Source of the DNA: Desulfocapsa sp.
Lineage (GTDB): Bacteria > Desulfobacterota > Desulfobulbia > Desulfobulbales > Desulfocapsaceae
Reading direction: 5' to 3'
NCBI GenBank assembly: GCA_030145625.1
Contig: JAQYVF010000003.1
Location: 1-64,000, forward strand
DNA length: 64,000 nucleotides
Shown here: in pieces, positions 8,057 to 35,256 of the stretch
How positions within the stretch are numbered: position 1 is the stretch's first letter
Layout: every line of letters starts with the position of its first letter
Notes under the pieces: generated by a model
Databases searched by the model: none
What the model was told of the DNA's origin: nothing
The model's input: only the letters and a program-made list of their open reading frames with translations
Position numbers and translations under genes: made by a program

Positions 8057-9223
8057 TTACAGCGAAGCATTTTCGGCAATTGTTTTTGAGTTCTTTTTGA
8101 TAGACAATCTTACCCAGCCCAAATTGGTTTCTTTGTCAGCGACGATAACCAGAAATGCCTCAGTCCCTACTGGAGCAAACATAACTGGTCCGTTTTCGTA
8201 CTCGATCATAGTCATGGTCAAGTTCCCCTGACCAAGTTGACCACCCATTGAATACGCAGAACCGAAACCACTGGAAGCAATTGCACCTATCATCTCAGCA
8301 TCAACGCTTTGTCTTGCAATATGGTTAAGAATAAAACCATCTCTACCGACCAGGCAAGCTGTGTGTACACCTTCAATACTTGTAAATTCAGATAGAATTG
8401 TTTCAATTTCATTCATCTCTTCATCCTCACTGGTTAACTGTTTATCTCCAAATATTTGGATATTGACCGGTCCCGACAAGGCATTTAAAGTAAGCTTCTC
8501 ATCAATCGGTTCCAAAACCGTTATTTTCTCATCTGCATCTGTTTCGGTAAAAAGCTGGTCGGCCCTCGTGGCACCTTCCAGAATAAGGGCATCAATATTC
8601 TTTCTGATACTGTTCAAAGGGGGTTCGACCCCTCTCATGTTTTCGATTGTACCCCCTTGGAAGGTCAGGATTTTGTAAAAAGCCTCTTCTCCTGTTGCCT
8701 GCCCGCACATAGCGTGAATAACGGCCCCATCTTTAAAAAAAATCATTCCTTCTTCCTCTCCCGTCTTTACCTTTAGAGCCGAGGTCGATTTGGAGAGACC
8801 GTTAAATTGCACAATGTCTATAAGTTCGATACCATCAACGACCCCTCTAAAGTGATCATCTTTGAACAAGACCTCTTGTACCTGTTCTCTTAATTCATGT
8901 ATGTCAAAAGGTTTTTCAATGAACCTGAGACTACCGTTCATCATGGCCTTATCTTTGTAATCACTTGAAGGGTAAGCGGTCATGATCATGACGCCGGTTT
9001 CAGGATAGAGGTTTTTGATTTCAATGAGTAAATCAAGACCGTTGATGCCCGGCATATTGATGTCGGTGATTACCAGATCAATCTTGTTTTCACCCAGAAT
9101 ACCTAAACCCTCTTCACCGGAATGAGCAGCGAGAATCTCAACATCATCCATGTTTTTGTTGAGTTTTCGTTGCAACATCCACAACATATCGTCTTCATCG
9201 TCAACAACAAGTATCCTTTTCAT
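8057..9223 (-). CDS. Response regulator with DUF4388 and Roadblock/LC7 domains
   Basis: A 388-residue protein of three parts. Residues 1-120 form a receiver domain (acidic pocket DDED at 8-11, phospho-acceptor D54 in VITDINMPG, lysine in IEKPFD). Residues of about 125-230 match DUF4388/PATAN-like sequence (GVVDGIELIDIVQFNGLSKS, IFFKDGAVIHA). Residues of about 265-380 are a Roadblock/LC7 domain (SIEGVHTACLVGRDGFILNH, GPVMFAPVG). There is no DNA-binding domain, so output probably goes through protein contact. A good ribosome-binding site (AAGGGG) precedes ATG 9223. It lies in a run with the kinase and NtrC genes upstream, although a 500-bp gap with a repeat separates them. Confidence 0.85.
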   Translation of the reverse strand: MKRILVVDDEDDMLWMLQRKLNKNMDDVEILAAHSGEEGLGILGENKIDLVITDINMPGINGLDLLIEIKNLYPETGVMIMTAYPSSDYKDKAMMNGSLRFIEKPFDIHELREQVQEVLFKDDHFRGVVDGIELIDIVQFNGLSKSTSALKVKTGEEEGMIFFKDGAVIHAMCGQATGEEAFYKILTFQGGTIENMRGVEPPLNSIRKNIDALILEGATRADQLFTETDADEKITVLEPIDEKLTLNALSGPVNIQIFGDKQLTSEDEEMNEIETILSEFTSIEGVHTACLVGRDGFILNHIARQSVDAEMIGAIASSGFGSAYSMGGQLGQGNLTMTMIEYENGPVMFAPVGTEAFLVIVADKETNLGWVRLSIKKNSKTIAENASL

Positions 9224-13562: not shown

Positions 13563-14228
13563 TTATTTCATTTTGTTTTCAATTGGAATGGGATCAAGAT
13601 ACATAAAGCTTAGAAAGCCCAGCTGTGCCAAAGCTATTCCATACCTTTTCTCAATATGGATTGTGGTGATGTTAAAGGTGATCTCTCCGATCTGTTCCAG
13701 GTTTCTGATAGTCAATTCATGCTGTAAGGACTTCGTCAGTTGCTTTTTGGCATCCTCTTCAGCTTTTTCTGACGATATTTTCAGCCCTGGATAAATAAAT
13801 TCGTATTCTGCTGCAAATCCACCAATCTTTTTTCCTGTTGCCAGGTCTCTGGCCCATATTCGACCAACTCCTGCGGCCACGGTATCACCCTTTACTCCTC
13901 CGGCTTTGGCCATTATGGATTCGAGTACTGCTCCATGATGAAAATATTTTTTTGCCTGAACAAGGGAAATCTCATATGATTCCAGTGGCAGAACCGAGGT
14001 GTAATAAATAACATTAAAGTTTTCAATACCTGCTTCCTGCAAGGCCAGATCATAGGAAAAGGTTTCATAAGGATCAGGGGGAAGACCTTCATCCGACTGG
14101 CCGGTACCTGTCGTTGCAATATAGGCAGTGGGTACTCTGACACCAAAGGAAGTTTCAGCAAGAACAACATTTACACTTAGGAAAACGGTTAAACAAACAG
14201 ACACAGCAAGTGCTCTCAACATGATCAT
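13563..14228 (-). CDS. Exported pyruvoyl-dependent arginine decarboxylase-like protein
   Basis: A 221-residue protein. After a signal peptide (hydrophobic residues 4-22, cleavage likely after VLA at 24) the sequence resembles PvlArgDC: 'VPTAYIATTGTGQSD', 'SYDLALQEAGIENFNVIYY', 'TSVLPLES', 'KGDTVAAGVGRIWAR', 'GGFAAEYE'. In the family the chain cuts itself before a serine to make the pyruvoyl group; the matching site here is T77-S78. ATG 14228 is chosen because a strong AGGAG lies 6 bases upstream; an earlier in-frame ATG lacks this. Family enzymes convert arginine to agmatine in the cytoplasm, so an export signal is unusual. Activity is not proven; neighbours give no pathway. Confidence 0.7.
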   Translation of the reverse strand: MIMLRALAVSVCLTVFLSVNVVLAETSFGVRVPTAYIATTGTGQSDEGLPPDPYETFSYDLALQEAGIENFNVIYYTSVLPLESYEISLVQAKKYFHHGAVLESIMAKAGGVKGDTVAAGVGRIWARDLATGKKIGGFAAEYEFIYPGLKISSEKAEEDAKKQLTKSLQHELTIRNLEQIGEITFNITTIHIEKRYGIALAQLGFLSFMYLDPIPIENKMK

Positions 14229-14354
14229 ACTTTTCTCCTTTTTGGGTTGAAAAACAAACAAAAGGGATACTCACCTTCTTCCCCGAAATACATTTTGTGT
14301 ATACAAAACTGTGACCTATTTTGGTGCTCCTGTCCGGACAATTGACAGATTGAT

Positions 14355-24720: not shown

Positions 24721-25359
24721 TTAGACAAGACGCAAAAGAGCATTAATAATGGCAACCGACACAGTGGTTCCCCCTTTTCGGCCAAGAGATGTAATAGAAG
24801 GAAAATCCTGTTCGTAAAGGATATCTTTTGATTCTTCTGCATTAACAAAGCCAACCGGCACTCCAATGACCAGATCAGGGTTCGCCCGTCCTTCTTCAAT
24901 AAGCTTTATTGCTGCCAACAGGGCTGTGGGTGCGTTGCCGATGGCAACTATTCCCACATTTTCCGCGATTCCCTCCTCAAGGGCAGTCTCTGATCTGGTT
25001 TTCCCCTGAGTCCTTGCAAGGACTGCAATCTCTGGATCAGCCACCCTGCAGATGATTTTCCCGCCATAAGGCTCGAGTAAAGTGCGGCTGATTCCGGCAG
25101 TGGCCATGTTGACATCAGTGAGGATACTTTTTCCAGAACGGATAGCAGCCAGACCTGCCTCAATGGCACGGTCATGAAAACGAATACTTGCAGCAAAGGA
25201 AAAATCACCGGTGGCATGGATTACCCGTCGGATGACAGCAAACTCACTCGGATCAAGGGTGTCTGGATTTATTCCTGTGCGCTCTTCAAACTCCTCTTCA
25301 ATAATTCGAAAGCTTTCCGTTTCTATGTCCTGTGGCTCTATCTTGAGTATTCTTTTCAT
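24721..25359 (-). CDS. cbiC: Cobalt-precorrin-8 methylmutase
   Basis: A 212-residue enzyme moving a methyl group from C-11 to C-12 of cobalt-precorrin-8 to give cobyrinate. Recognised by 'RRVIHATGDFSFAASIRF' (with the conserved histidine), 'LTDVNMATAGI' and 'VIGVPVGFVNAEESKDIL'. Length about 210 is standard. Last gene of the minus-strand cobalamin operon, 56 bp after cbiA. The start context has AGGAAAAAAAT. Confidence 0.95.
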   Translation of the reverse strand: MKRILKIEPQDIETESFRIIEEEFEERTGINPDTLDPSEFAVIRRVIHATGDFSFAASIRFHDRAIEAGLAAIRSGKSILTDVNMATAGISRTLLEPYGGKIICRVADPEIAVLARTQGKTRSETALEEGIAENVGIVAIGNAPTALLAAIKLIEEGRANPDLVIGVPVGFVNAEESKDILYEQDFPSITSLGRKGGTTVSVAIINALLRLV

Positions 25360-25415
25360 ATTTTTTTCCTGCTTTCAATAAACTGCTTTAATTTTACAAA
25401 CAGAGGATCATCGTG

Positions 25416-26771
25416 TCAGCTGATCTCAGAGGCCTTACTCAAAGAGTTAATAAAATTTTCCACATTTGCACGGCTCCTGCCAAAATGAAGATGGATATAG
25501 CCACCAAGCACATTCCTGTATTGATACCCTTCATTACGACCATCTTCCAATCCATAGAGGGTTATTACATCTTCAGGGATATCTATAAGCTCTGAATAAT
25601 GAAATTCATGACCATGCAGCCATTCTCCCTTCTTTCCAAAGAAACAATCCTTTTCCAGTTGCGGTCTGCGATATCCCAATCGGGAAAAACGTGTTTTCAT
25701 CCGTACCTGAAAGGGAAAAATTCCACACATGGCGTGAGACACCTGATCGATGTCACTGATCTGCTTACAAAGATACATAAATCCACCACATTCCGCATAG
25801 ATTATACCACCAGAGATCGCAAATTGGTAAACAGATGCCAGCATCTCATGATTGGCGCCAAGAGTTGCTGCGTGAAGTTCCGGGTAACCTCCGCCAAAAT
25901 AGACACCATGACATCCTCTGGGTAATGCATGATCTGTCAAAGGGCTGAAGAAGACCAACTCTGCACCAGCCTCTTCCAACATGCGAAGATTTTCCTGGTA
26001 ATAAAAACAGAAGGCCTTGTCTTGGGCTACGGCCAAACGTACTTTTGCTGGAGTCTTAGCAACAACCTTCTTACTCAGAGAACGGGTAGTGGGCGACCTC
26101 TTTGTCAGCTGCAGCAACTGATCAAGATCGATATGCCGTTCCACATTTTCAATAAGACCAGTCAGCTGTTCACTGCTCAAGGGATTTTCGTCACCCATAT
26201 GCAAGCCCAAATGTCGATCAGGAATCTCAAAACGGAGATCACGGGGGAAAAAACCAAGAATACGACTCTTACAGTTAGACTGGACCGCCTGCTCAATAAG
26301 TTCACGATGACGGGGTGAGCCGACCCTGTTAAAGATGATTCCACAGATATTGACCCCTGAGGAGTATTCTTCAAACCCTTTGACCACAGCAGCCACACTC
26401 TCTCCGGCAGAACGGGAATCTACAACCAGAACAACAGGGAGCTGAAGAACAGTGGCCAGAGAGGCTGAACTGGCCCTCCCGCCATCAAAGAGTCCCATCA
26501 CTCCTTCCACCACAGCAACGTCCTGTCCTGCCAAATGATCACTAAACACATCGGAGCAAAAGGCTTTCCCACACATCCTGAGATCAAGATTGGAGGAAAC
26601 ATGACCTGTAACCATTTTATGAAGACTGGGATCGATAAAATCAGGCCCACACTTAAAAGGCTGCACTTGCAATTCTCTTGCCTTGAGGGCGGCCATAATG
26701 CCAAGTGTTAAGGTGGTCTTCCCGGAACCGCTGGTGGTTCCGCCTATGAGAAAGGCAGATAATGTGTTCAT
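25416..26771 (-). CDS. cbiA: Cobyrinate a,c-diamide synthase
   Basis: A 451-residue glutamine amidotransferase that amidates the a and c side chains of cobyrinate with ATP. The N-terminal dethiobiotin-synthetase-like ATP domain has the P-loop GTTSGSGKTTL and 'FKCGPDFIDPSLH'. The C-terminal GATase domain has the nucleophile in 'YAECGGFMYL' and the histidine in 'HGHEFHYSEL'. Length normal (about 450). Its start overlaps the cbiB stop by 4 bases (ATGA-type), giving coupled translation. Confidence 0.95.
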   Translation of the reverse strand: MNTLSAFLIGGTTSGSGKTTLTLGIMAALKARELQVQPFKCGPDFIDPSLHKMVTGHVSSNLDLRMCGKAFCSDVFSDHLAGQDVAVVEGVMGLFDGGRASSASLATVLQLPVVLVVDSRSAGESVAAVVKGFEEYSSGVNICGIIFNRVGSPRHRELIEQAVQSNCKSRILGFFPRDLRFEIPDRHLGLHMGDENPLSSEQLTGLIENVERHIDLDQLLQLTKRSPTTRSLSKKVVAKTPAKVRLAVAQDKAFCFYYQENLRMLEEAGAELVFFSPLTDHALPRGCHGVYFGGGYPELHAATLGANHEMLASVYQFAISGGIIYAECGGFMYLCKQISDIDQVSHAMCGIFPFQVRMKTRFSRLGYRRPQLEKDCFFGKKGEWLHGHEFHYSELIDIPEDVITLYGLEDGRNEGYQYRNVLGGYIHLHFGRSRANVENFINSLSKASEIS

Positions 26772-27775
26772 AGCAGAAAATAAAGAAAGGCTCTTCGCAA
26801 TAAGAGCATCAAGAGAAGAAAGAGAAAAGATCCCAGGAGCATAAGTTTGTTGGATCTCAGAATATCGGTAGCCTCTATTTCACGACCGGGTTCTCCGATA
26901 CAAGGCTTGCTCACCACTTTCCCAAAATAATTTGAGACACCACCAAGCTGAACGCCCAGGGCTCCGGCCACTGCCGCTTCAGGATGTCCAGCATTTGGGC
27001 TTGCATGTGCAAGCCTGTCCTTAACAAAAACCCTGAATGCCCCCTGACAGTCCAGGCCGAGAAAAAGTGCAGCCGGGACAAGAAGCAGTCCACTGATCCG
27101 TGCCGGGACAAAATTGACCAGATCATCCAGTCGAGCTGCGCATCTGCCGAAAAAGAGATAACGATCATTTTTATAACCAATCATAGAATCCATGGTATTC
27201 ACCGCCTTGTAGGCCATGGCTCCCAAGGCTGCCAACACTATTGGATCTGTTCCGGTCACTGGAGCAAGCATTGAAAAAAGAATAGCGTAAAAAAGTGGCG
27301 CTGTCACACCATCTACCATGTTTTCGGCCACGGTTTCCACGCAGGCTCGAATAATTCCGGCCCTGCTGAGTGTTTCAGTGTCTCTCCCCACTATTTGTGA
27401 GATTGCAATTCTGGCCCGCTCCAGGGAAGTGGTATCCTCTAATGCCAGGTAAACTGATTTGGAATGGACAACCAGATCCCGTGCAGCAACGGAGGTGTAG
27501 AGAACGAAAACAGCAAGGACCTGAGCGAGTATGACAGAGAGCAATGAAGCGCTTACAAGAAGGATTGCTGTCACACTAAGGGTCAGACCAATAACCGAAG
27601 CGACGGTCAATGCTCCAGCAAGGAGCTGAGATTTCACAAGACGCCCAAAGACTGCTTCACACCAGGTACAGAACAGTCCTATAAGTCGTACCGGATGAGG
27701 AAACCAGCGAGGATCACCACAAAAGAGATCGAGGAGCACTGCAGCCCAGAGCTGTAGTTCAAACAAATAGGTCAT
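26768..27775 (-). CDS. cbiB: Adenosylcobinamide-phosphate synthase
   Basis: A 335-residue inner-membrane protein joining aminopropanol phosphate (or aminopropanol) to adenosylcobyric acid. It shows the family opening 'LLDLFCGDPRWFPHPVRLIG', 'ACVETVAENMVDGVTAPLFYA', 'NTMDSMIGYKNDRY' and 'SPNAGHPEAAVAGALGVQLGG', with about five membrane segments. Length is typical (310-340). Sits 9 bp after the cobD-cbiP fusion, consistent with the reaction order: the fusion supplies both the linker and cobyric acid, and CbiB joins them. Confidence 0.95.
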   Translation of the reverse strand: MTYLFELQLWAAVLLDLFCGDPRWFPHPVRLIGLFCTWCEAVFGRLVKSQLLAGALTVASVIGLTLSVTAILLVSASLLSVILAQVLAVFVLYTSVAARDLVVHSKSVYLALEDTTSLERARIAISQIVGRDTETLSRAGIIRACVETVAENMVDGVTAPLFYAILFSMLAPVTGTDPIVLAALGAMAYKAVNTMDSMIGYKNDRYLFFGRCAARLDDLVNFVPARISGLLLVPAALFLGLDCQGAFRVFVKDRLAHASPNAGHPEAAVAGALGVQLGGVSNYFGKVVSKPCIGEPGREIEATDILRSNKLMLLGSFLFLLLMLLLRRAFLYFLL

Positions 27776-27784
27776 AGTAAGCGA

Positions 27785-30400
27785 TCAAAGACCAAGCAAT
27801 TGGTAAACCCTGTCCATATCCATTCCCCTGCGCACTACATCTGCTAAGCGGTCAAAGGCAGGTTCCAGATTATAGGAACAAAGGGGACCTTCATACGGTT
27901 CCAATCCTTTTCGCTGCCGCACCCGATCTATGAACCATCGACGAAAGAGATCTGAATCAAAGACGCCGTGAAGATAACTGCCCCAGATGAGCCCGTCCTC
28001 AGAAGCAGTGCCGCAGGACGAATTGTCATCATAAGAGAAAAGAGAATCGCTGCTGGTGCGAGTGAGTCCATGATGAATCTCGTAACCGACAACTGCCTGC
28101 CCGGAAGGGATATGAATACCCTCCTTTCTTACCAGGGTCTTGTCCGGAGCCAAAAAGGTGTGCATATCGATAAGTGCCAGCCCCTGGATCTTATGATTTG
28201 TAGACTCAATCCCATGTGGGTCTTCAATGCTGGATCCAAGCATCTGATAGCCGCCGCATATGCCAACCACCTCACACCCCTGCTCTGCCCTCTTTTGAAT
28301 TTCGGCAGCTATTCCTGACTCAATGAGAAAGAGAAGATCACCTATCACATTTTTGGAACCGGGCAATAGAATTACATCAGGTGAGCCCAGGTCTGCAGGC
28401 TGAGAAACCATCCGCAGATAGACATCCGGTTCTTCGATGAAAGGTTCGATATCGGTGAAGTTTGAAATGTGAGGCAGGCTGACAAGCGCAATTTCGATAT
28501 GTTCCCGATCAGGTTTCGTACCTTGAAAAAGACCGTCTTTGAAGGATACGGAATCCTCTTCAGGGATACCATGATTGGCAAGGTAGGGAATCACACCCAG
28601 AACTTCCTTACCGGTGTGGGCAGCAACATAGTCATGGGCATCCTGAAGCAGTGAGCTCTTTCCTCGGAAACGGTTAACCAGAAATCCTGCCACCAAGCTA
28701 CGTTCCCACTGGTTGAGCACCTCCATGGTGCCGACAAAGGAGGCATACACCCCGCCTCTGTCAATGTCGCCCACCAGGATCACCGGTGATTCTGCATAAC
28801 GAGCCATGCGCATGTTGACTATGTCATGCCGCTTGAGATTGACTTCACCAGGTGACCCTGCTCCTTCCAGAACTATGGCCTGATAATCTGCAGCCAATGC
28901 ATCATAACAGGAACAGGCCTCTTGCATGGCCTGTTCCTTGTAATGCACATATTCCATAACTGTCATGTTTCCAACCGGCCGTCCCTTAACGATGACCTGA
29001 CTGCCAGTATCGGAGTTGGGTTTAAGAAGTACGGGATTCATGCGTACATCCGGGTCCAGGCGTGCGGCCTGGGCCTGCACCACCTGAGCCCTGCCCATCT
29101 CAAGACCGTCAAGAGTAACAAAGGAGTTGAGAGACATATTCTGGGCCTTAAACGGTGCCACCCGCACCCCGTCCTGGAGCAAGATGCGACACAGAGCAGC
29201 GGTGAGTACTGATTTCCCGGCATTGGAAGAAGTCCCCTGAAACATGATAGCCGGTGTCTTCTTTGGCCTTGTGTTGTTTCTCTGCTTTTGCTCGGAACCC
29301 GGCATAATCTTTGATAACGCATCAAGGAAATGCCTGTTTTCCTGGTGATTGCGCACTGCTATCCGGAAATAACCCGTACCAAGGCCACGATAGTTGGCGC
29401 AGTCCCTGATCAGAATATTCTGTTCTTCCAGTTTTTCTTGTACCTCGCTGACCGTAAGTCTTCCTTTCAGATGAAGAAGAAGATAATTGGCCTCGGAGGG
29501 AAACAGCTGCAGATCACCAAAAGCGGACAAACCCTTTTGCAAAGAATCCCTGCACTCGACACAGTACTGCCTGGATTCCTGCCAGTACGCTCTGTCCAGA
29601 AGGGCTCGCTGCCCAACCTTCTGAGCCAGGCTGTTCACCGTCCAGGGAGGCAGCAGACGCCGCAGATTGTTGGCTATGGCAGCAGGAAAGATACCAAAGC
29701 CAAGGCGCAGTCCAGGGATGGCATAAAATTTAGTCAGGGAATGGAGGGTGAGGATATTTGGCGCTGCAGCGGCGACACTCTGTCCGTCCTCTACAAAATC
29801 GAGGAAGGCCTCATCGACAAGAAAAAGAACCTGGGGATGCTCTTCTGCCAGCTCCACAATATCCGCCGCTGCCATACATCTGCCGGTCGGGTTATTTGGT
29901 GTTCCGAGGATAAGCAGATCCCCTGGGAGAAGAGCAGCACTGATCTGTTTCGGGTCTGGCACGAAATTCTGGGAAGGATCGAGAGAAAGAGTCTGCACCG
30001 GAATTCCGGCAAGTTCCATCACCTTGATGTAATCGATATAACAGGGAACAGGAATGATAGCCCTTTTGCAGTCAAGAACACGTGGCAGCTGATAGAGGAG
30101 TTCGGTAGAGCCGTTGGCCACCAGTACTGTTTCAGAGGGAACCTCGTAGCTCTCACTTATGATCCCGGCAAGTTGCGAAGCAGAGGGATCAGGATAATGG
30201 AGGATGGAGTCCACCTCCCTGCTCAGACAGGGACGAAGCCACTCGGGGGGCCCCAGGGGATTAATGTTGGCACTGAAATCCAGGATAGAGTCCAGTTCAA
30301 CCCCTTTGCTTCTGGACACGGCGTGGACATTCCCTCCATGTCCGTATGAGATATCTCCTGCTTTCATATTTTCAACATGCTCTAAGAGTGATGACGGCAT
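27785..30400 (-). CDS. Fused threonine-phosphate decarboxylase and cobyric acid synthase
   Basis: An 871-residue two-enzyme protein. Residues of about 20-365 are a PLP aminotransferase-fold domain like CobD/CobC: 'GHGGNVHAVSR', 'LDFSANINPLGPPEWL', the PLP lysine in 'LHSLTKFYAIPGLRLGF' near 226. It would make aminopropanol phosphate from threonine phosphate. Residues of about 383-871 are cobyric acid synthase (CbiP/CobQ): P-loop GTSSNAGKSVL near 392, 'FKAQNMSLNSFVT', 'GDIDRGGVYASFVGT', nucleophile cysteine in GICGGYQMLG near 716, and 'GSYLHGVFDSD'. Both halves look complete. Separate genes in most organisms; the fusion links two branches meeting at CbiB. Confidence 0.93.
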   Translation of the reverse strand: MPSSLLEHVENMKAGDISYGHGGNVHAVSRSKGVELDSILDFSANINPLGPPEWLRPCLSREVDSILHYPDPSASQLAGIISESYEVPSETVLVANGSTELLYQLPRVLDCKRAIIPVPCYIDYIKVMELAGIPVQTLSLDPSQNFVPDPKQISAALLPGDLLILGTPNNPTGRCMAAADIVELAEEHPQVLFLVDEAFLDFVEDGQSVAAAAPNILTLHSLTKFYAIPGLRLGFGIFPAAIANNLRRLLPPWTVNSLAQKVGQRALLDRAYWQESRQYCVECRDSLQKGLSAFGDLQLFPSEANYLLLHLKGRLTVSEVQEKLEEQNILIRDCANYRGLGTGYFRIAVRNHQENRHFLDALSKIMPGSEQKQRNNTRPKKTPAIMFQGTSSNAGKSVLTAALCRILLQDGVRVAPFKAQNMSLNSFVTLDGLEMGRAQVVQAQAARLDPDVRMNPVLLKPNSDTGSQVIVKGRPVGNMTVMEYVHYKEQAMQEACSCYDALAADYQAIVLEGAGSPGEVNLKRHDIVNMRMARYAESPVILVGDIDRGGVYASFVGTMEVLNQWERSLVAGFLVNRFRGKSSLLQDAHDYVAAHTGKEVLGVIPYLANHGIPEEDSVSFKDGLFQGTKPDREHIEIALVSLPHISNFTDIEPFIEEPDVYLRMVSQPADLGSPDVILLPGSKNVIGDLLFLIESGIAAEIQKRAEQGCEVVGICGGYQMLGSSIEDPHGIESTNHKIQGLALIDMHTFLAPDKTLVRKEGIHIPSGQAVVGYEIHHGLTRTSSDSLFSYDDNSSCGTASEDGLIWGSYLHGVFDSDLFRRWFIDRVRQRKGLEPYEGPLCSYNLEPAFDRLADVVRRGMDMDRVYQLLGL

Positions 30401-30440
30401 AAAAGTACTTCATCTGAACGTGTGAATTCCAATAATCTTG

Positions 30441-31235
30441 TTAAAAAGAAACAGTGAAGACAACGGCAGTGGCAAGTTCCGTAAGCTCACAGACCGCACC
30501 CAGGGTGTCTCCGGTGGCCCCGCCGATTTTACGAAAACAACAGAAGGAAAAGAGCGCAACCGTTACCAGAAGAGCTGCCAGCAACAGAAAGGCAATTTTC
30601 CAGGAAAAGATGAGTGCAACCAAGGCATAAAAGAACAGAGTGGCCAGGCCAAGTATACGGCTGTCTGCAGAGTAGAAAAGACCGCCAAGACCTTCGGTTG
30701 TGCGTGCATAGGGAAGAACAGCCATGGTAAGTAAGATGGCAGTCCTTCCGGCCAGAGGCATGAGAAAGACAGCCATGACCATAGTGGCAACGGGCATAGC
30801 AGAGAGTGCACCATATTTCCCAAGGAGCACAAAGATAAGTACAATCACGCCCATGGCTCCACTGCGACTGTCACGCATGATATCAAGGGCCTGTTCGCGA
30901 GGCCGGGCACTGAGCAGCCCATCTCCACTGTCCGCCAGACCGTCCAGATGCAAACAGCCGGATATTCCTGCCATAAAAACAATTGCCAGAACAGCAACCA
31001 GAGAAGGAGGCAGAACAGTCCCTCCCAGAAAGACAACAGCTGCAGCCATCACTCCGATCAGCAGTCCAACAAGGGGAAACCAGATCAAACTGGCCTGAAA
31101 AAAACGACCATCTTCTTTGCTTTTCCAGGAAATGGGAATGATGGTGAGAAAGCGCAGGGCAGTGAGCAGAGAGGCTAGGGGGAAACGCAGCCCGAGCCAC
31201 AAAGCATTCTCATGCCCGGCAGAGTCACCTCCCAT
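30441..31235 (-). CDS. cobS: Adenosylcobinamide-GDP ribazoletransferase (cobalamin synthase)
   Basis: A 264-residue membrane enzyme joining adenosylcobinamide-GDP with alpha-ribazole(-phosphate), the final assembly step. It shows 'LLTALRFLTIIPI', 'GCLHLDGLADSGDGLL' (conserved D-x-x-x-D-x-x-D), 'DSRSGAMGV' and 'KIGGATGDTLGAVCELTE', with six or seven membrane helices. I chose ATG 31235, just one base past the cobT stop; an in-frame ATG at 31298 would add 21 residues overlapping cobT and without family similarity. Length agrees with the family (about 250-265). Confidence 0.94.
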   Translation of the reverse strand: MGGDSAGHENALWLGLRFPLASLLTALRFLTIIPISWKSKEDGRFFQASLIWFPLVGLLIGVMAAAVVFLGGTVLPPSLVAVLAIVFMAGISGCLHLDGLADSGDGLLSARPREQALDIMRDSRSGAMGVIVLIFVLLGKYGALSAMPVATMVMAVFLMPLAGRTAILLTMAVLPYARTTEGLGGLFYSADSRILGLATLFFYALVALIFSWKIAFLLLAALLVTVALFSFCCFRKIGGATGDTLGAVCELTELATAVVFTVSF

Positions 31236-31236
31236 C

Positions 31237-32301
31237 TTATTTGTCGGATCCGGCAACGGCTGCCTCTTCAAAGGTAGCGACTTCGGTGAGTACGGCAACA
31301 GCAGCTTCCACCAGGTTCATGGCCAGCGCTGCACCTGTTCCTTCACCCAGACGGAGATTCATGTCAAGCAGTGGCCTGCAGCCGATCTTCTCCTGCATGT
31401 AACGATGTCCCGGTTCCATGGAACGATGGGCACAGATAATATAATCCCTGACAAAAGGCTCAATGGCAATGGCAATAAGTGCGCCTGCTGTTGAAATAAA
31501 GCCGTCTACTACGACTGGTTTCTTCAATGCAGCAGCTCCGAGAATAAGACCGGCTATGCCGCCGATTTCAAAGCCGCCAACCTTGGCCAGGATATCGATG
31601 CCGTTTTTTGGATCCGGTTTGTTACATGCGAGAATCTTCTTGATCACTTCCTGTTTGTGCTCCAGCTGTTCATCGTCAAGACCGGTACCTCGACCCGTGA
31701 GCTCTTCAACGGATTTCCCGGTAATGACCGCGGCGATTGCGGTGGAAGGCGTGGTGTTTCCTATGCCCATATCGCCGGTACCAAAGACATCCACCCTACC
31801 TGCTAATTCATTGGCAATATCGATCCCTGATTCAATGGAACGAATGGCCATGGCATTACTCATGGCAGGTCCCCGGGCAATATTATCAGTGCCCAGCCCT
31901 ACTTTTTTATTTATGATTTTACCCTCCCTGGCAAGATCATTCAAATCTGCGGCCACTCCCATGTCCACCACCACCACATCTGCACCGGCCTGTCTGGCCA
32001 AGGCATTGATCCCTGCTCCGCCATTGACAAAGTTATAAACCATCTGCGGAGTTACTTCCTGGGGAAATTTGGACACCCCTTCTGCAACCACCCCGTGATC
32101 ACCTGCCATGGTGATTATGGCCTTTTTTGCCACCGGCGGGGCCATGGAATGGGTCATTCCGGCAAGGTCGATGGCCAGATCCATCAGATCACCCAAGGCC
32201 CAGTGCGGCATCGCCAGTTGATCCAGTCGTTCTTTGGCACGATCTCGGAAATCGCTATCCTGGGGAAAAATATCTTTCAGTGTTCGATCAAGTAAGCTCA
32301 T
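31237..32301 (-). CDS. cobT: Nicotinate-nucleotide-dimethylbenzimidazole phosphoribosyltransferase
   Basis: A 354-residue enzyme making alpha-ribazole phosphate from the lower-ligand base and nicotinate mononucleotide. Typical segments: 'GDHGVVAEGVSKFPQEVTPQM', 'INALARQAGADVVVVDMGV', 'GDMGIGNTTPSTAI' and 'EIGGIAGLILGAA'. ATG 32301 is chosen because AAGGA lies 8 bases upstream and residues before it are not family-like. The base specificity (dimethylbenzimidazole or another benzimidazole) cannot be read from sequence. Located between cobU and cobS. Confidence 0.95.
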   Translation of the reverse strand: MSLLDRTLKDIFPQDSDFRDRAKERLDQLAMPHWALGDLMDLAIDLAGMTHSMAPPVAKKAIITMAGDHGVVAEGVSKFPQEVTPQMVYNFVNGGAGINALARQAGADVVVVDMGVAADLNDLAREGKIINKKVGLGTDNIARGPAMSNAMAIRSIESGIDIANELAGRVDVFGTGDMGIGNTTPSTAIAAVITGKSVEELTGRGTGLDDEQLEHKQEVIKKILACNKPDPKNGIDILAKVGGFEIGGIAGLILGAAALKKPVVVDGFISTAGALIAIAIEPFVRDYIICAHRSMEPGHRYMQEKIGCRPLLDMNLRLGEGTGAALAMNLVEAAVAVLTEVATFEEAAVAGSDK

Positions 32302-32364
32302 TATATATTCCTTTCTTATCTGCATACCCTTAAAGGGTTGCTATAAAGAGTATGCAGATTGTGT

Positions 32365-32916
32365 TTATTTATTTTCAGATTCTTTTAAAAAAAGTGGGAG
32401 ACCGCAGCTGACAAGGATTACTTCATCGGCAGCCGCTGCCACCATTCTATTACAACGCCCTACCAAATCACGATACAATCTGGCCGACACATTATCAGGA
32501 ACAATCCCCATCCCCACCTCGTTGGAAACACAAATCAAGGTTCCCCGGTATTTGGCAGCTGCGTCAATCAATGCTTCACACCTTGCCTGAACCTCACCTT
32601 CGCCAAAGGACATACCCGACTGTTCAGCTAGATACAGAAGATTGTTAACCCAAAGGGTTAGACAATCAATGAGACATACCGAATCAGATTCCAGTGAACT
32701 GACAATTCCGGCCAGCTCAAGTTCCTCTTCTATGGTTTGCCACATGCCATTCTCACGATCAGCCTTATGCCTGGATATCCGATCATCCATCTCCGGATCT
32801 ATGACCGGGCAGGTGGCCAGAAAGAAATAGGGTCCGGGCAGGGCCTGGGCTCGCGTCAGGGCATAATCACTCTTCCCACTCCTGGCTCCCCCTGTCACAA
32901 GAATCAACCTTCCCAC
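32365..32916 (-). CDS. cobU: Adenosylcobinamide kinase / guanylyltransferase
   Basis: A 183-residue bifunctional enzyme that phosphorylates adenosylcobinamide and then forms adenosylcobinamide-GDP. P-loop GGARSGKSDYAL at residues 8-19, 'RISRHKADRENGMW' with the guanylated histidine (H in RHKADR), and the C-terminal 'SNEVGMGIVP' and 'LYRDLVGRCNRMVAAAADEV'. Length is standard (about 180). Overlaps the cobC-like gene by 13 bases, a sign of a tight operon. Confidence 0.96.
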   Translation of the reverse strand: MGRLILVTGGARSGKSDYALTRAQALPGPYFFLATCPVIDPEMDDRISRHKADRENGMWQTIEEELELAGIVSSLESDSVCLIDCLTLWVNNLLYLAEQSGMSFGEGEVQARCEALIDAAAKYRGTLICVSNEVGMGIVPDNVSARLYRDLVGRCNRMVAAAADEVILVSCGLPLFLKESENK

Positions 32917-33503
32917 GCGCTTTCCCCCAAATTAAGACCGGTGAGAACGCCGCCCTCACTAAAAAGATCCAGAGTGGCAAATCTGCCCTTGTTTATCTGG
33001 AAAAGGAGAAAGTCACTTGGAGCAAGATTCAGAAAATAACAGAGAAGGGTTCGGATAACACCACCATGTGCAATCAAGAGTGTCGTTTTTTCCTGAGAAA
33101 GCAATATTCTTTCACCAACACTGTGTATCCGATCAACAAAGCTGCCAATACGCTCTCCTTGCGGAAAACAAAATTCAGGTGACCAGTTAGCCCACAGCTC
33201 AACCAGTTCGGGGTCGGCTTCTTTTATTTCCCTAAAACTTAAGCCCTCCCATCGACCAAAATCGATTTCACGCAACTCGTTATCATAGCGGACAGAAGAT
33301 TCCGGAAACAGAATTTCAGCACACTGCCTGCAGCGCTCCATGGGACTGGAGAGGATCAGATCGACTTCCTGATGCCGGAAAATATTCTGCAGAGAGGAAA
33401 TCTGGGAAACCCCTTCGGACGAAAGCGGAACGTCAGTGGCACCAACATATTTTTCAGAAAACCCAGTCTTGCCATGTCTCAGCAGAATAAGCCGCCGGTT
33501 CAT
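32904..33503 (-). CDS. cobC: Alpha-ribazole phosphatase-like histidine phosphatase
   Basis: A 199-residue phosphoglycerate-mutase-fold phosphatase. LLRHGKTGFSEKYVGATDVPLS holds the catalytic RHG motif, and 'LREIDFGRWEGLSFREI' and the second histidine 'LLIAHGGVIRTLLC' are typical of CobC. It removes the phosphate from alpha-ribazole-5'-phosphate or cobalamin phosphate. The histidine-phosphatase family is broad, but the position between cbiH and cobU makes the CobC role very likely. Overlaps cbiH by 4 bases (ATGA). Confidence 0.88.
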   Translation of the reverse strand: MNRRLILLRHGKTGFSEKYVGATDVPLSSEGVSQISSLQNIFRHQEVDLILSSPMERCRQCAEILFPESSVRYDNELREIDFGRWEGLSFREIKEADPELVELWANWSPEFCFPQGERIGSFVDRIHSVGERILLSQEKTTLLIAHGGVIRTLLCYFLNLAPSDFLLFQINKGRFATLDLFSEGGVLTGLNLGESAWEG

Positions 33504-34318
33504 TCGTTTTTACCATCCTTTTCAGCCCTTCCCAGTTCATACTTATCCTTATAGCCCCTGGGAGTAATCATGAAGCCATTCCAGGAAAAAGTAGTTGAGT
33601 TGCCAATGATAACAGTAGACTGCATGTTAATTTCGGCCTCAAGCATATGATCCAGACTGGTGAGACAGATCGATTCGTTCTCCCGACTGGCAGCGGTAAC
33701 AATACCAACCGGTGTTTTACCGTCTCTATGGCGAAGCATGATCTCTCTGGCTTTAACGATATGTTCGGTACGTTTTTTAGACTTTGGATTATAGAGAGCA
33801 ATAACAAAATCGGCAGATGCAGCAGCATCAAGTCGTTTTTCTATCATCTCCCAGGGGGTAAGCAGGTCGGAAAGACTGATTGCGGCAAAATCATGCATAA
33901 GCGGGGCACCAAGCCGTGCTGCACAGCCATTGACTGCAGCAATCCCGGGAATCACCTCGATTCTGACCCGACTGTCAGTCTTGGCAGCGATCTCAAATAC
34001 AAGCCCTGCCATGGCATAAATCCCTGGATCTCCGCCTGAGACAAGAGCTACATTTTTGCCGGCAGCAGCGAGTTCAAAAGATGCGTTGCAGCGATCCACC
34101 TCCTGCATCATCGCAGAGGAAAGGACCTCTTTCCCTTTCAGCAGTTCCGGGATAAGATCCAGATAAGTCTTATACCCAATAATGACATCCGCTTTTTCCA
34201 GGGCATTCACTGCCTGAGGCGTCATATTTTCTCTACTTCCGGTCCCGGTGCCGACTACACTGATCAAGCCGAGAGCCGGATCCGCTTTATGGCCACGGCT
34301 GCTGTTACATCCTTCCAT
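33500..34318 (-). CDS. cbiH: Cobalt-precorrin-3 C17-methyltransferase
   Basis: A 272-residue SAM-dependent tetrapyrrole methylase that methylates C-17 and drives ring contraction. 'ISVVGTGTGSRENMTPQAVNAL', 'DVIIGYKTYLDLIPEL', 'LVSGGDPGIYAMAGLVFE', 'VIPGIAAVNGCAARLGAPLMHDF' and 'ALYNPKSKKRTEHI' match CbiH/CobJ. Starts inside the end of cbiG (55-base overlap); the first 16 residues (MEGCNSSRGHKADPAL) are not family-like. A later non-ATG start (a CTG or TTG near residue 16-19) is conceivable. Confidence 0.93.
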   Translation of the reverse strand: MEGCNSSRGHKADPALGLISVVGTGTGSRENMTPQAVNALEKADVIIGYKTYLDLIPELLKGKEVLSSAMMQEVDRCNASFELAAAGKNVALVSGGDPGIYAMAGLVFEIAAKTDSRVRIEVIPGIAAVNGCAARLGAPLMHDFAAISLSDLLTPWEMIEKRLDAAASADFVIALYNPKSKKRTEHIVKAREIMLRHRDGKTPVGIVTAASRENESICLTSLDHMLEAEINMQSTVIIGNSTTFSWNGFMITPRGYKDKYELGRAEKDGKNE

Positions 34319-35256
34319 TTTCTTTTCCTTAGTATCAGTTGGCCTGGGCCGAGATCTGTTTTTGCACCAAGAACGGCAGCCGGTTCAGCCACCCCTTTAG
34401 CACCAGTGGCTGCAACAACCGCTGCAGAAGTAGAAACTCCCTGCACTTCATTTAACTGCTCCTTGCTGTAAAACCGTAGGGGGAGTCCCTCATCGGAAGC
34501 AAAATCGAGCAAGCCCTGTTCATCATTTTTTAAATCAATGGAGGCAAAACCACAAATCGCATTACGAGCCAATCCTTCATCATGAAAAAATTCATCGAGA
34601 GCTGCCTGAAAGTCCCCTTTTCCTGTTCCTCTGTTACATCCCAGTCCTACCATAAGGGCACAGGGTCGCAAAAGAAGCGCTCGACTGTCAGGAAAATCTC
34701 TATCGGAAACTACGATATCAGCGCTCTCCGGGGTAAAAACAAGCTGAAAATCATCTGGCAGAGATTGATTTTCATATTCTGAAAAGATTTGCAGCTGTCC
34801 CTCGTTGACAAGTTTTGCAGACATTGCAGTCAAGAGTTTCCTGTTTTCTACAAGCAGGCCGTTTTTTTCTACCCAAAGATCAAGTGCGGTGTGACCGGTT
34901 ACATCAGAGGCAGTGGTAATAACTGCTTGTCCTCCAAGCTTGTCGGCAATGTCGGTTGCCAGTTGATTGCCTCCTCCAAGATGTCCGGAAAGAAGACTGA
35001 CAACAAAAGATCCTTTCTCATCAAGAACCAATACACAAGGATCATGTTTTTTGTCCCGGCAAAGTTGAACCAGCCCACGGACCACAATTCCTGCTGCCAT
35101 AACACATACTAGAGCATCCACCTCCTGCCAGAGTTCAGCCATTTTGGTAAAGACCGGAATATCTCTGTTATCCAGAAAACAATCAGGTTGCAGACGGCAG
35201 ATCTTATCCGCCAGTTCTTTACCTCCTCTGGTCAGTGTGATAACAGCTATTTTCAT
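34264..35256 (-). CDS. cbiG: Cobalt-precorrin-5A hydrolase
   Basis: A 330-residue enzyme opening the delta-lactone of cobalt-precorrin-5A with loss of acetaldehyde, a step found only in the oxygen-independent route. N-terminal part: 'FTKMAELWQEVDALVCVMAAGIVVR', 'DEKGSFVVSLLSGHLGGGNQLA'. C-terminal CbiG_C part: 'VGLGCNRGTG', 'SIDLKNDEQGLLDFA', 'GVAEPAAVLGA'. First gene of the operon on this strand. Its presence, rather than CobG, shows the pathway is the anaerobic one. The 305 bp upstream hold no recognisable B12 riboswitch. Confidence 0.95.
   Translation of the reverse strand: MKIAVITLTRGGKELADKICRLQPDCFLDNRDIPVFTKMAELWQEVDALVCVMAAGIVVRGLVQLCRDKKHDPCVLVLDEKGSFVVSLLSGHLGGGNQLATDIADKLGGQAVITTASDVTGHTALDLWVEKNGLLVENRKLLTAMSAKLVNEGQLQIFSEYENQSLPDDFQLVFTPESADIVVSDRDFPDSRALLLRPCALMVGLGCNRGTGKGDFQAALDEFFHDEGLARNAICGFASIDLKNDEQGLLDFASDEGLPLRFYSKEQLNEVQGVSTSAAVVAATGAKGVAEPAAVLGAKTDLGPGQLILRKRKWKDVTAAVAIKRIRLSA

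Follow-up and report, generated by a model that had tools for sequence, protein, structure and literature searches.

The gene at 13563-14228 of the window, the stretch of 64,000 nucleotides from Desulfocapsa sp. (contig JAQYVF010000003.1) analysed here, encodes a pyruvoyl arginine decarboxylase homologue (PvlArgDC) that starts with a predicted Sec signal peptide and is almost certainly exported. As judged from sequence comparisons, the exported PvlArgDC is a new branch of a known enzyme family, which occurs in several phyla and has recurrent exported partners. On balance, we favour the view that the protein decarboxylates arginine after export and self-maturation, as one of a set of enzymes that break down amino acids outside the cytoplasm.

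The window gene and its active site

The open reading frame coincides exactly with these coordinates (Table 1), and its product scores 91.6 bits against the Pfam PvlArgDC family (PF01862, cut-off 22.7). The strong AGGAG that a prior sequence-only reading had placed before the chosen start is where it should be. That reading had also found no polyamine genes next to PvlArgDC, which holds for the window, where the neighbourhood contains genes for DarP, RecD2, a PCC-domain protein and a two-component pair; it missed, however, that partners exist elsewhere, in the form of exported decarboxylases and an exported asparaginase rather than polyamine genes. The gene, its signal and the order PCC-DarP-PvlArgDC are retained in a second genome of the genus (G002, locus L003; the window gene is locus L034 of its own genome, G000), with 90% protein identity, a dN of 0.051 and a dS of 0.70. 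The gene is under purifying selection in the genus. No match was found in phages and no relative in viral contigs, the only annotated plasmid relatives were two distant ones (43% and 30% identity), and there was no PADLOC match; a phage or plasmid origin and a defence function were accordingly set aside. RNA regulation was likewise set aside, as an Rfam search around the gene gave no match; promoter and terminator patterns were at chance level. Elsewhere in the window, 8057-9223 encodes a response regulator with fused DUF4388 and Roadblock/LC7 domains, and a run resembling cobalamin biosynthesis genes, judged by eye from the translations, extends over 24721-35256.

Alignment to the Methanocaldococcus jannaschii proenzyme (1n2m, an S53A mutant, so that Ala stands at S53 in the alignment) pairs D60, N72, T77-S78 and E141 of the window protein with D35, N47, S52-S53 and E109, respectively. 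None of these window residues varies in an alignment of 21 rows that includes AaxB-type enzymes. We take D35 of the M. jannaschii enzyme to contact the substrate and E109 to donate the proton. An AlphaFold2 model built on the 21 rows (pLDDT 89.1) matched the M. jannaschii enzyme best, with a Z-score of 19.9 and 1.8 Å over 152 residues for 2qqd_H and a Foldseek E-value of 6.7e-12, histidine decarboxylase, another pyruvoyl enzyme, being far behind (Z 8.3). L069, which has a stop codon in the range, was left out of that alignment, and a repeat was also run without L079, L086, L093, L105, L112 and L118. Thus, the T77-S78 pair, the GGFAAEYE region and the other catalytic residues that the earlier reading had led us to expect are present, in a fold that matches the solved enzyme (1n2m, 2qqd, 1mt1). 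Identity to the M. jannaschii protein is only about 23%; the latter has 165 residues against 221 and no signal. From alignment and model together, we regard the conservation of the active site with high confidence, and self-cleavage at T77-S78 as very probable. PMC2720952 describes AaxB as cleaving itself at Ser53, with Glu109 facilitating cleavage.

Table 1. Features of the exported PvlArgDC gene in the window, and aspartate 4-decarboxylase (AspD) genes with export-type signals in other contigs.
Feature	Position	Strand	Basis or source
Exported PvlArgDC gene, 221 aa plus stop	13563..14228	-	ORF, translation, Pfam PF01862 91.6 bits
AGGAG ribosome-binding site, 6 bases before ATG at 14228	14235..14239	-	sequence
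Predicted Sec-type signal peptide, residues 1-24, cut between VLA and ET	14157..14228	-	rule-based survey, cut prediction, homology start
Predicted mature PvlArgDC domain, residues 25-221, no cysteine	13566..14156	-	alignment, AlphaFold2 model pLDDT 89.1
T77-S78, putative site of self-cleavage; S78 would be converted to the pyruvoyl group	13995..14000	-	alignment with S52-S53 of 1n2m
D60, matching D35 of M. jannaschii PvlArgDC	14049..14051	-	alignments
N72, equivalent of N47	14013..14015	-	alignments
GGFAAEYE, residues 136-143, E141 equivalent to E109	13800..13823	-	alignments
AspD with Tat-like signal	L180:7641-9389 (G000:C139)		own genome
AspD with Tat-like signal	L181:9084-10832		G002, sister genome
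AspD with Tat-like signal	L183:8007-9773		Dethiosulfatarculus
AspD with Sec-like signal	L182:8744-10450		

The nearest sequence group without a signal is that of AaxB, from the chlamydial aaxABC arginine:agmatine exchange, which belongs to the same Pfam family. Cytosolic AaxB-type proteins, including Chlamydia L078, are 44-48% identical to the window protein and share with it the Thr-Ser before VLP and the GGxAAEY strand; L078 differs in having no signal. According to PMC2720952, AaxB works with a porin (aaxA) and an antiporter (aaxC); no porin or antiporter is found among the genes scanned beside the window PvlArgDC. The window protein stays below both NCBIfam equivalog cut-offs for arginine decarboxylase (43.5 of 106.95 bits for TIGR00286 and 38.3 of 207 for NF009064). 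Since the cytosolic AaxB-type L054 does so as well (23.6 and 24.0 bits), these models do not reach the AaxB-like part of the family, and we dropped the low scores as evidence against arginine.

A signal-bearing branch of the family

The N-terminus (MIMLRALAVSVCLTVFLSVNVVLA, with the predicted cut before ET) has the n-, h- and c-region pattern of a Sec signal, namely a charged n-region, a hydrophobic core and an AXA-like cut site, and no lipobox Cys follows the cut. Signals were judged by a rule of our own and not by SignalP. For the window gene this rule picked an upstream TTG; from the ATG of the near-identical G002 gene, the predicted cut falls between VVLA and ETS. Homology to signal-less relatives begins at residues 25-29, just where the signal would end.

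A contig scan of about 85,000 genomes, which relied on two peptide patterns so that exported members without both patterns were missed, led us to keep 80 loci of 283 relatives. A signal was found in 8 of the 80 (L039-L046), which are the eight best, and in none of the other 72 (L047-L118); the rule also marks the window gene and its G002 counterpart. Thirty canonical PvlArgDC loci (L004-L033) make a poor control for the rule, as anchoring failed in many rows. Besides G000 and G002, seven further genomes hold relatives that start with signals, and the hosts of exported PvlArgDC include WOR-1, Omnitrophota, Thermodesulfovibrionales, a Deltaproteobacteria MAG, Pseudodesulfovibrio and Dethiosulfatarculus. 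The export signal first read from a single gene is therefore conserved across a clade, and the sequence search for exported homologues points to a subfamily rather than a one-off.

Identity of the exported rows to the window protein is 90% for L039, which is the G002 record, lies at 58-67% for the next rows and falls to 47% in L046; the latter is no closer than the best cytosolic rows, whereas the other exported rows are the closest relatives. L046 is the most divergent exported PvlArgDC, and its genome (G449) also holds a canonical PvlArgDC. In a tree of 83 rows with the signal region left out, a branch with an SH-aLRT of 100 separates the nine exported rows from the rest. This tree was built without L039, L002 and L004-L033. 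A more careful tree of 45 rows, from which the long branch L046 and every second cytosolic row were also omitted, splits off eight exported rows with support of 100/100. Because canonical PvlArgDC is absent from them, both trees are unrooted as to whether export is derived. The mature part is free of cysteine in 7 of 9 exported rows, the exceptions being L044 (one) and L045 (two), and in none of 74 others, which carry one to five; the Fisher value for this contrast ignores relatedness. Loss of cysteine is expected of proteins that left the reducing cytoplasm. Canonical PvlArgDC is common in the phylum, some PF01862 match being present in 184 of 395 sampled genomes, and the exported type is not: besides G000, only two cytosolic AaxB-type proteins reach 1e-15 with the A1 profile. 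We hold export of the window protein, as read from these comparisons, with high confidence.

The premise that PvlArgDC enzymes are cytoplasmic is normally right, but not for the exported branch. Nor are arginine decarboxylases overall strictly cytoplasmic. SpeA is the PLP-type biosynthetic arginine decarboxylase, unrelated to PvlArgDC in fold and cofactor. For the E. coli enzyme, PMC8674398 reports, with reference to Buch and Boyle (1985) and to Meydan et al. (2019), a location in the cell envelope and, in part, the periplasm, so that arginine decarboxylation outside the cytoplasm has a precedent. G000 has a separate SpeA without visible signal (731 bits, above cut-off), adjoining an agmatinase that is also above cut-off and a carboxynorspermidine-synthase-like gene that is below it. 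Agmatine for polyamines can thus be made inside, which leaves another job for the exported enzyme. As G000 has a single PvlArgDC, the latter is not a duplicate of a cytosolic copy. In G443, G445, G446 and G448, neither a second PvlArgDC nor a SpeA above cut-off was found; there the exported enzyme might be the sole arginine decarboxylase, a point against our best explanation.

Recurrent exported partners

In several genomes the exported PvlArgDC is found with an exported protein of the PSD/PsiD family of pyruvoyl decarboxylases (PF02666). In WOR-1 (L040), PvlArgDC precedes two PSD-like genes that have an asparaginase gene between them, all of them with signals. In Omnitrophota (L043), the order is aspartate 4-decarboxylase (AspD), aspartate:alanine antiporter, PvlArgDC, exported C69 peptidase, exported PSD-like gene and exported asparaginase. 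In Thermodesulfovibrionales (L042:4287-6155), PvlArgDC and the PSD-like domain form one protein of 622 residues, led by a single signal and with no second one where the two parts meet; the mean pLDDT of its predicted fold, 42.2, is too low to lend support. Another contig of this genome carries AspD, the antiporter and an exported asparaginase together. Identity to the PSD-like protein of G000, which is of the exported type and unlinked to PvlArgDC, is 65-72% for the main PSD-like proteins of the three loci L040, L042 and L043. The GGS motif is kept in all of them and in G000, and so are the invariant Asp and His. Presumably, these are the catalytic residues. The partner differs from PSD and PsiD in its own signal, in a long extra N-terminal half and in scores below the NCBIfam PSD cut-offs; scored with its profile, solved phosphatidylserine decarboxylases do just as well as PsiD-type tryptophan decarboxylases.

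Among the nine genomes with exported PvlArgDC, strong PSD-like matches were found in five (G000, G002, G443, G445 and G446) and a weak one in G448. At E-values up to 1e-60, the PSD-like protein occurs in 4 of 395 genomes of the phylum and in 4 of 56 relatives sampled. Within the genus, both PvlArgDC genomes are among the three PSD-like genomes of 20 (P = 0.016, weak as statistics). Several observations count against our best explanation. The PSD-like profile found no match in G444, G447 or G449; G019, a genome 72% complete, has a PSD-like gene without PvlArgDC; no exported asparaginase was matched in G000 or G002; and in the window PvlArgDC adjoins none of its supposed partners. G026 (fragments) also has PSD-like sequence without PvlArgDC.

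A second exported PSD-like type (about 519-534 bits with the A4 profile) mostly stands alone (L140-L142, L145, L148:9220-10515, L150, L151 and L152). It lies beside a glutamate-decarboxylase-like gene in G205 and in tandem with the first type in G019. An identical 3' fragment of a PSD-like gene is found at two contig ends of the window's genome (G000:C134:2-193 and G000:C165:2-193), perhaps an unassembled repeat of a second copy.

AspD above cut-off was detected in 6 of the 9 genomes with exported PvlArgDC (G000, G002, G444, G445, G446 and G449), but in none of 3 comparators (two of which look like one genome) or 14 controls; the Fisher contrast, 6 of 9 against 0 of 16 (the controls and two comparators), ignores relatedness. 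Tat-like N-termini were seen in G000 and G002 (both SRRDFFK) and in G449 (KRREFLK), whereas the protein of G444 starts with a Sec-like stretch and those of G445 and G446 with neither. All six keep the SYSKYFG region, which we take to be that of the PLP lysine. The AspD of G449 adjoins a C45-family hydrolase with a signal-like start, and the G002 stretch with the Tat-type AspD also carries a glutamate decarboxylase above cut-off and a carbamoylputrescine-amidase-like gene (L181:1-2576, G002:C7). Overall, at least one further exported decarboxylase, either a strong PSD-like match or an exported AspD, was found in 7 of the 9 genomes; G448 is doubtful and none was found in G447. That exported PvlArgDC often stands alongside other exported amino-acid decarboxylases suggests that some bacteria degrade amino acids outside the inner membrane.

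Proposed role and its alternatives

In the reading we favour, PvlArgDC would be made with a Sec signal and sent unfolded to the periplasm, where it would fold and then cut itself between T77 and S78, S78 becoming the pyruvoyl cofactor. Periplasmic arginine would then be converted to agmatine and CO2, with a proton taken up outside the cytoplasm. Sec moves unfolded chains. A cofactor built from the enzyme's own chain needs no imported PLP, which would make the pyruvoyl type well suited to Sec export; in contrast, a PLP enzyme such as AspD must fold inside and would leave by Tat. The observed signals fit this division, except for the Sec-like AspD of G444. The recurrent companions of the exported PvlArgDC are the PSD-like enzyme (adjacent, fused or unlinked), an asparaginase and, in part of the genomes, an AspD whose signal is Tat- or Sec-like. 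As decarboxylation consumes a proton and asparaginase releases ammonia, such a set would make its compartment more alkaline; possible purposes are acid defence, supply of CO2 or amines, and depriving neighbours of arginine.

These elements differ in strength. Arginine is somewhat more probable than not as the substrate. That the enzymes share an extracytoplasmic decarboxylation role is possible, and at best about an even matter. More tentative still is a dedicated system beyond the inner membrane that would parallel the acid-resistance decarboxylases of the cytoplasm. In it, the Sec pyruvoyl enzyme would act on arginine, a Tat PLP enzyme on aspartate (fed by asparaginase in some genomes) and the Sec PSD-like enzyme on a third substrate, with protons consumed and CO2 and amines released in the periplasm. 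The earlier suggestion that agmatine might be made outside the cytoplasm is, overall, supported; acid resistance or signalling, which it offered as purposes, are candidates only.

It also seems conceivable, if rather unlikely, that the exported enzyme, paired with the PSD-like one, no longer acts on free arginine but, for example, on a different amino acid, the end of a peptide or an aminoacyl lipid. The equal relatedness of the PSD-like partner to phosphatidylserine and tryptophan decarboxylases indicates that pyruvoyl folds switch substrates, the window protein is 44-48% identical to its cytosolic AaxB-type relatives in the 21-row alignment, and changes particular to the exported branch are seen close to the active site (ETFSYDLAL for ETFCYDSAL); against this, D60, N72 and E141 are invariant in that alignment, AaxB-type enzymes included. 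A protein without activity, serving in binding, is improbable: the whole branch retains the residues that self-cleavage and proton donation require, and selection in the genus is purifying.

The position of the protein can be read in other ways too. The hydrophobic stretch, with low charge ahead of its core (one Arg) and residues 2-19 helical in the model, could be an uncut anchor that tethers the enzyme to the inner membrane facing the periplasm; A-X-A-like cut sites after the core in the exported rows make this a minor alternative, slightly better placed than an inactive protein. Least probable of all is that the enzyme is cytoplasmic and its N-terminal extension spurious or its start wrongly called. 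Our home-made rule is no proof of export, yet signals occur in 9 of 9 branch members, a ribosome-binding site precedes the chosen start, the order PCC-DarP-PvlArgDC is kept in G002, and cysteines have been lost.

In openly licensed papers we found no account of a pyruvoyl arginine decarboxylase that is exported, nor of an aspartate decarboxylase that leaves by Tat. Among the entries of PMC3234257 is an arginine decarboxylase predicted to be periplasmic that lacks a signal peptide; by term counts, a 2025 survey of gut decarboxylases (PMC12484125) mentions neither signal peptide nor periplasm.

Amino-acid decarboxylases of acid resistance or polyamine synthesis are generally placed in the cytoplasm, where they operate behind an antiporter. 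If our favoured reading is true, amino-acid decarboxylation would move outside the inner membrane with this exported branch, which makes its own cofactor, is in one case fused to a second pyruvoyl decarboxylase and occurs with a Tat-signalled AspD in three genomes, and this would explain why the pyruvoyl enzymes are those exported by Sec. It also means that genome-based counts of polyamine capacity can take an exported enzyme for a biosynthetic one.
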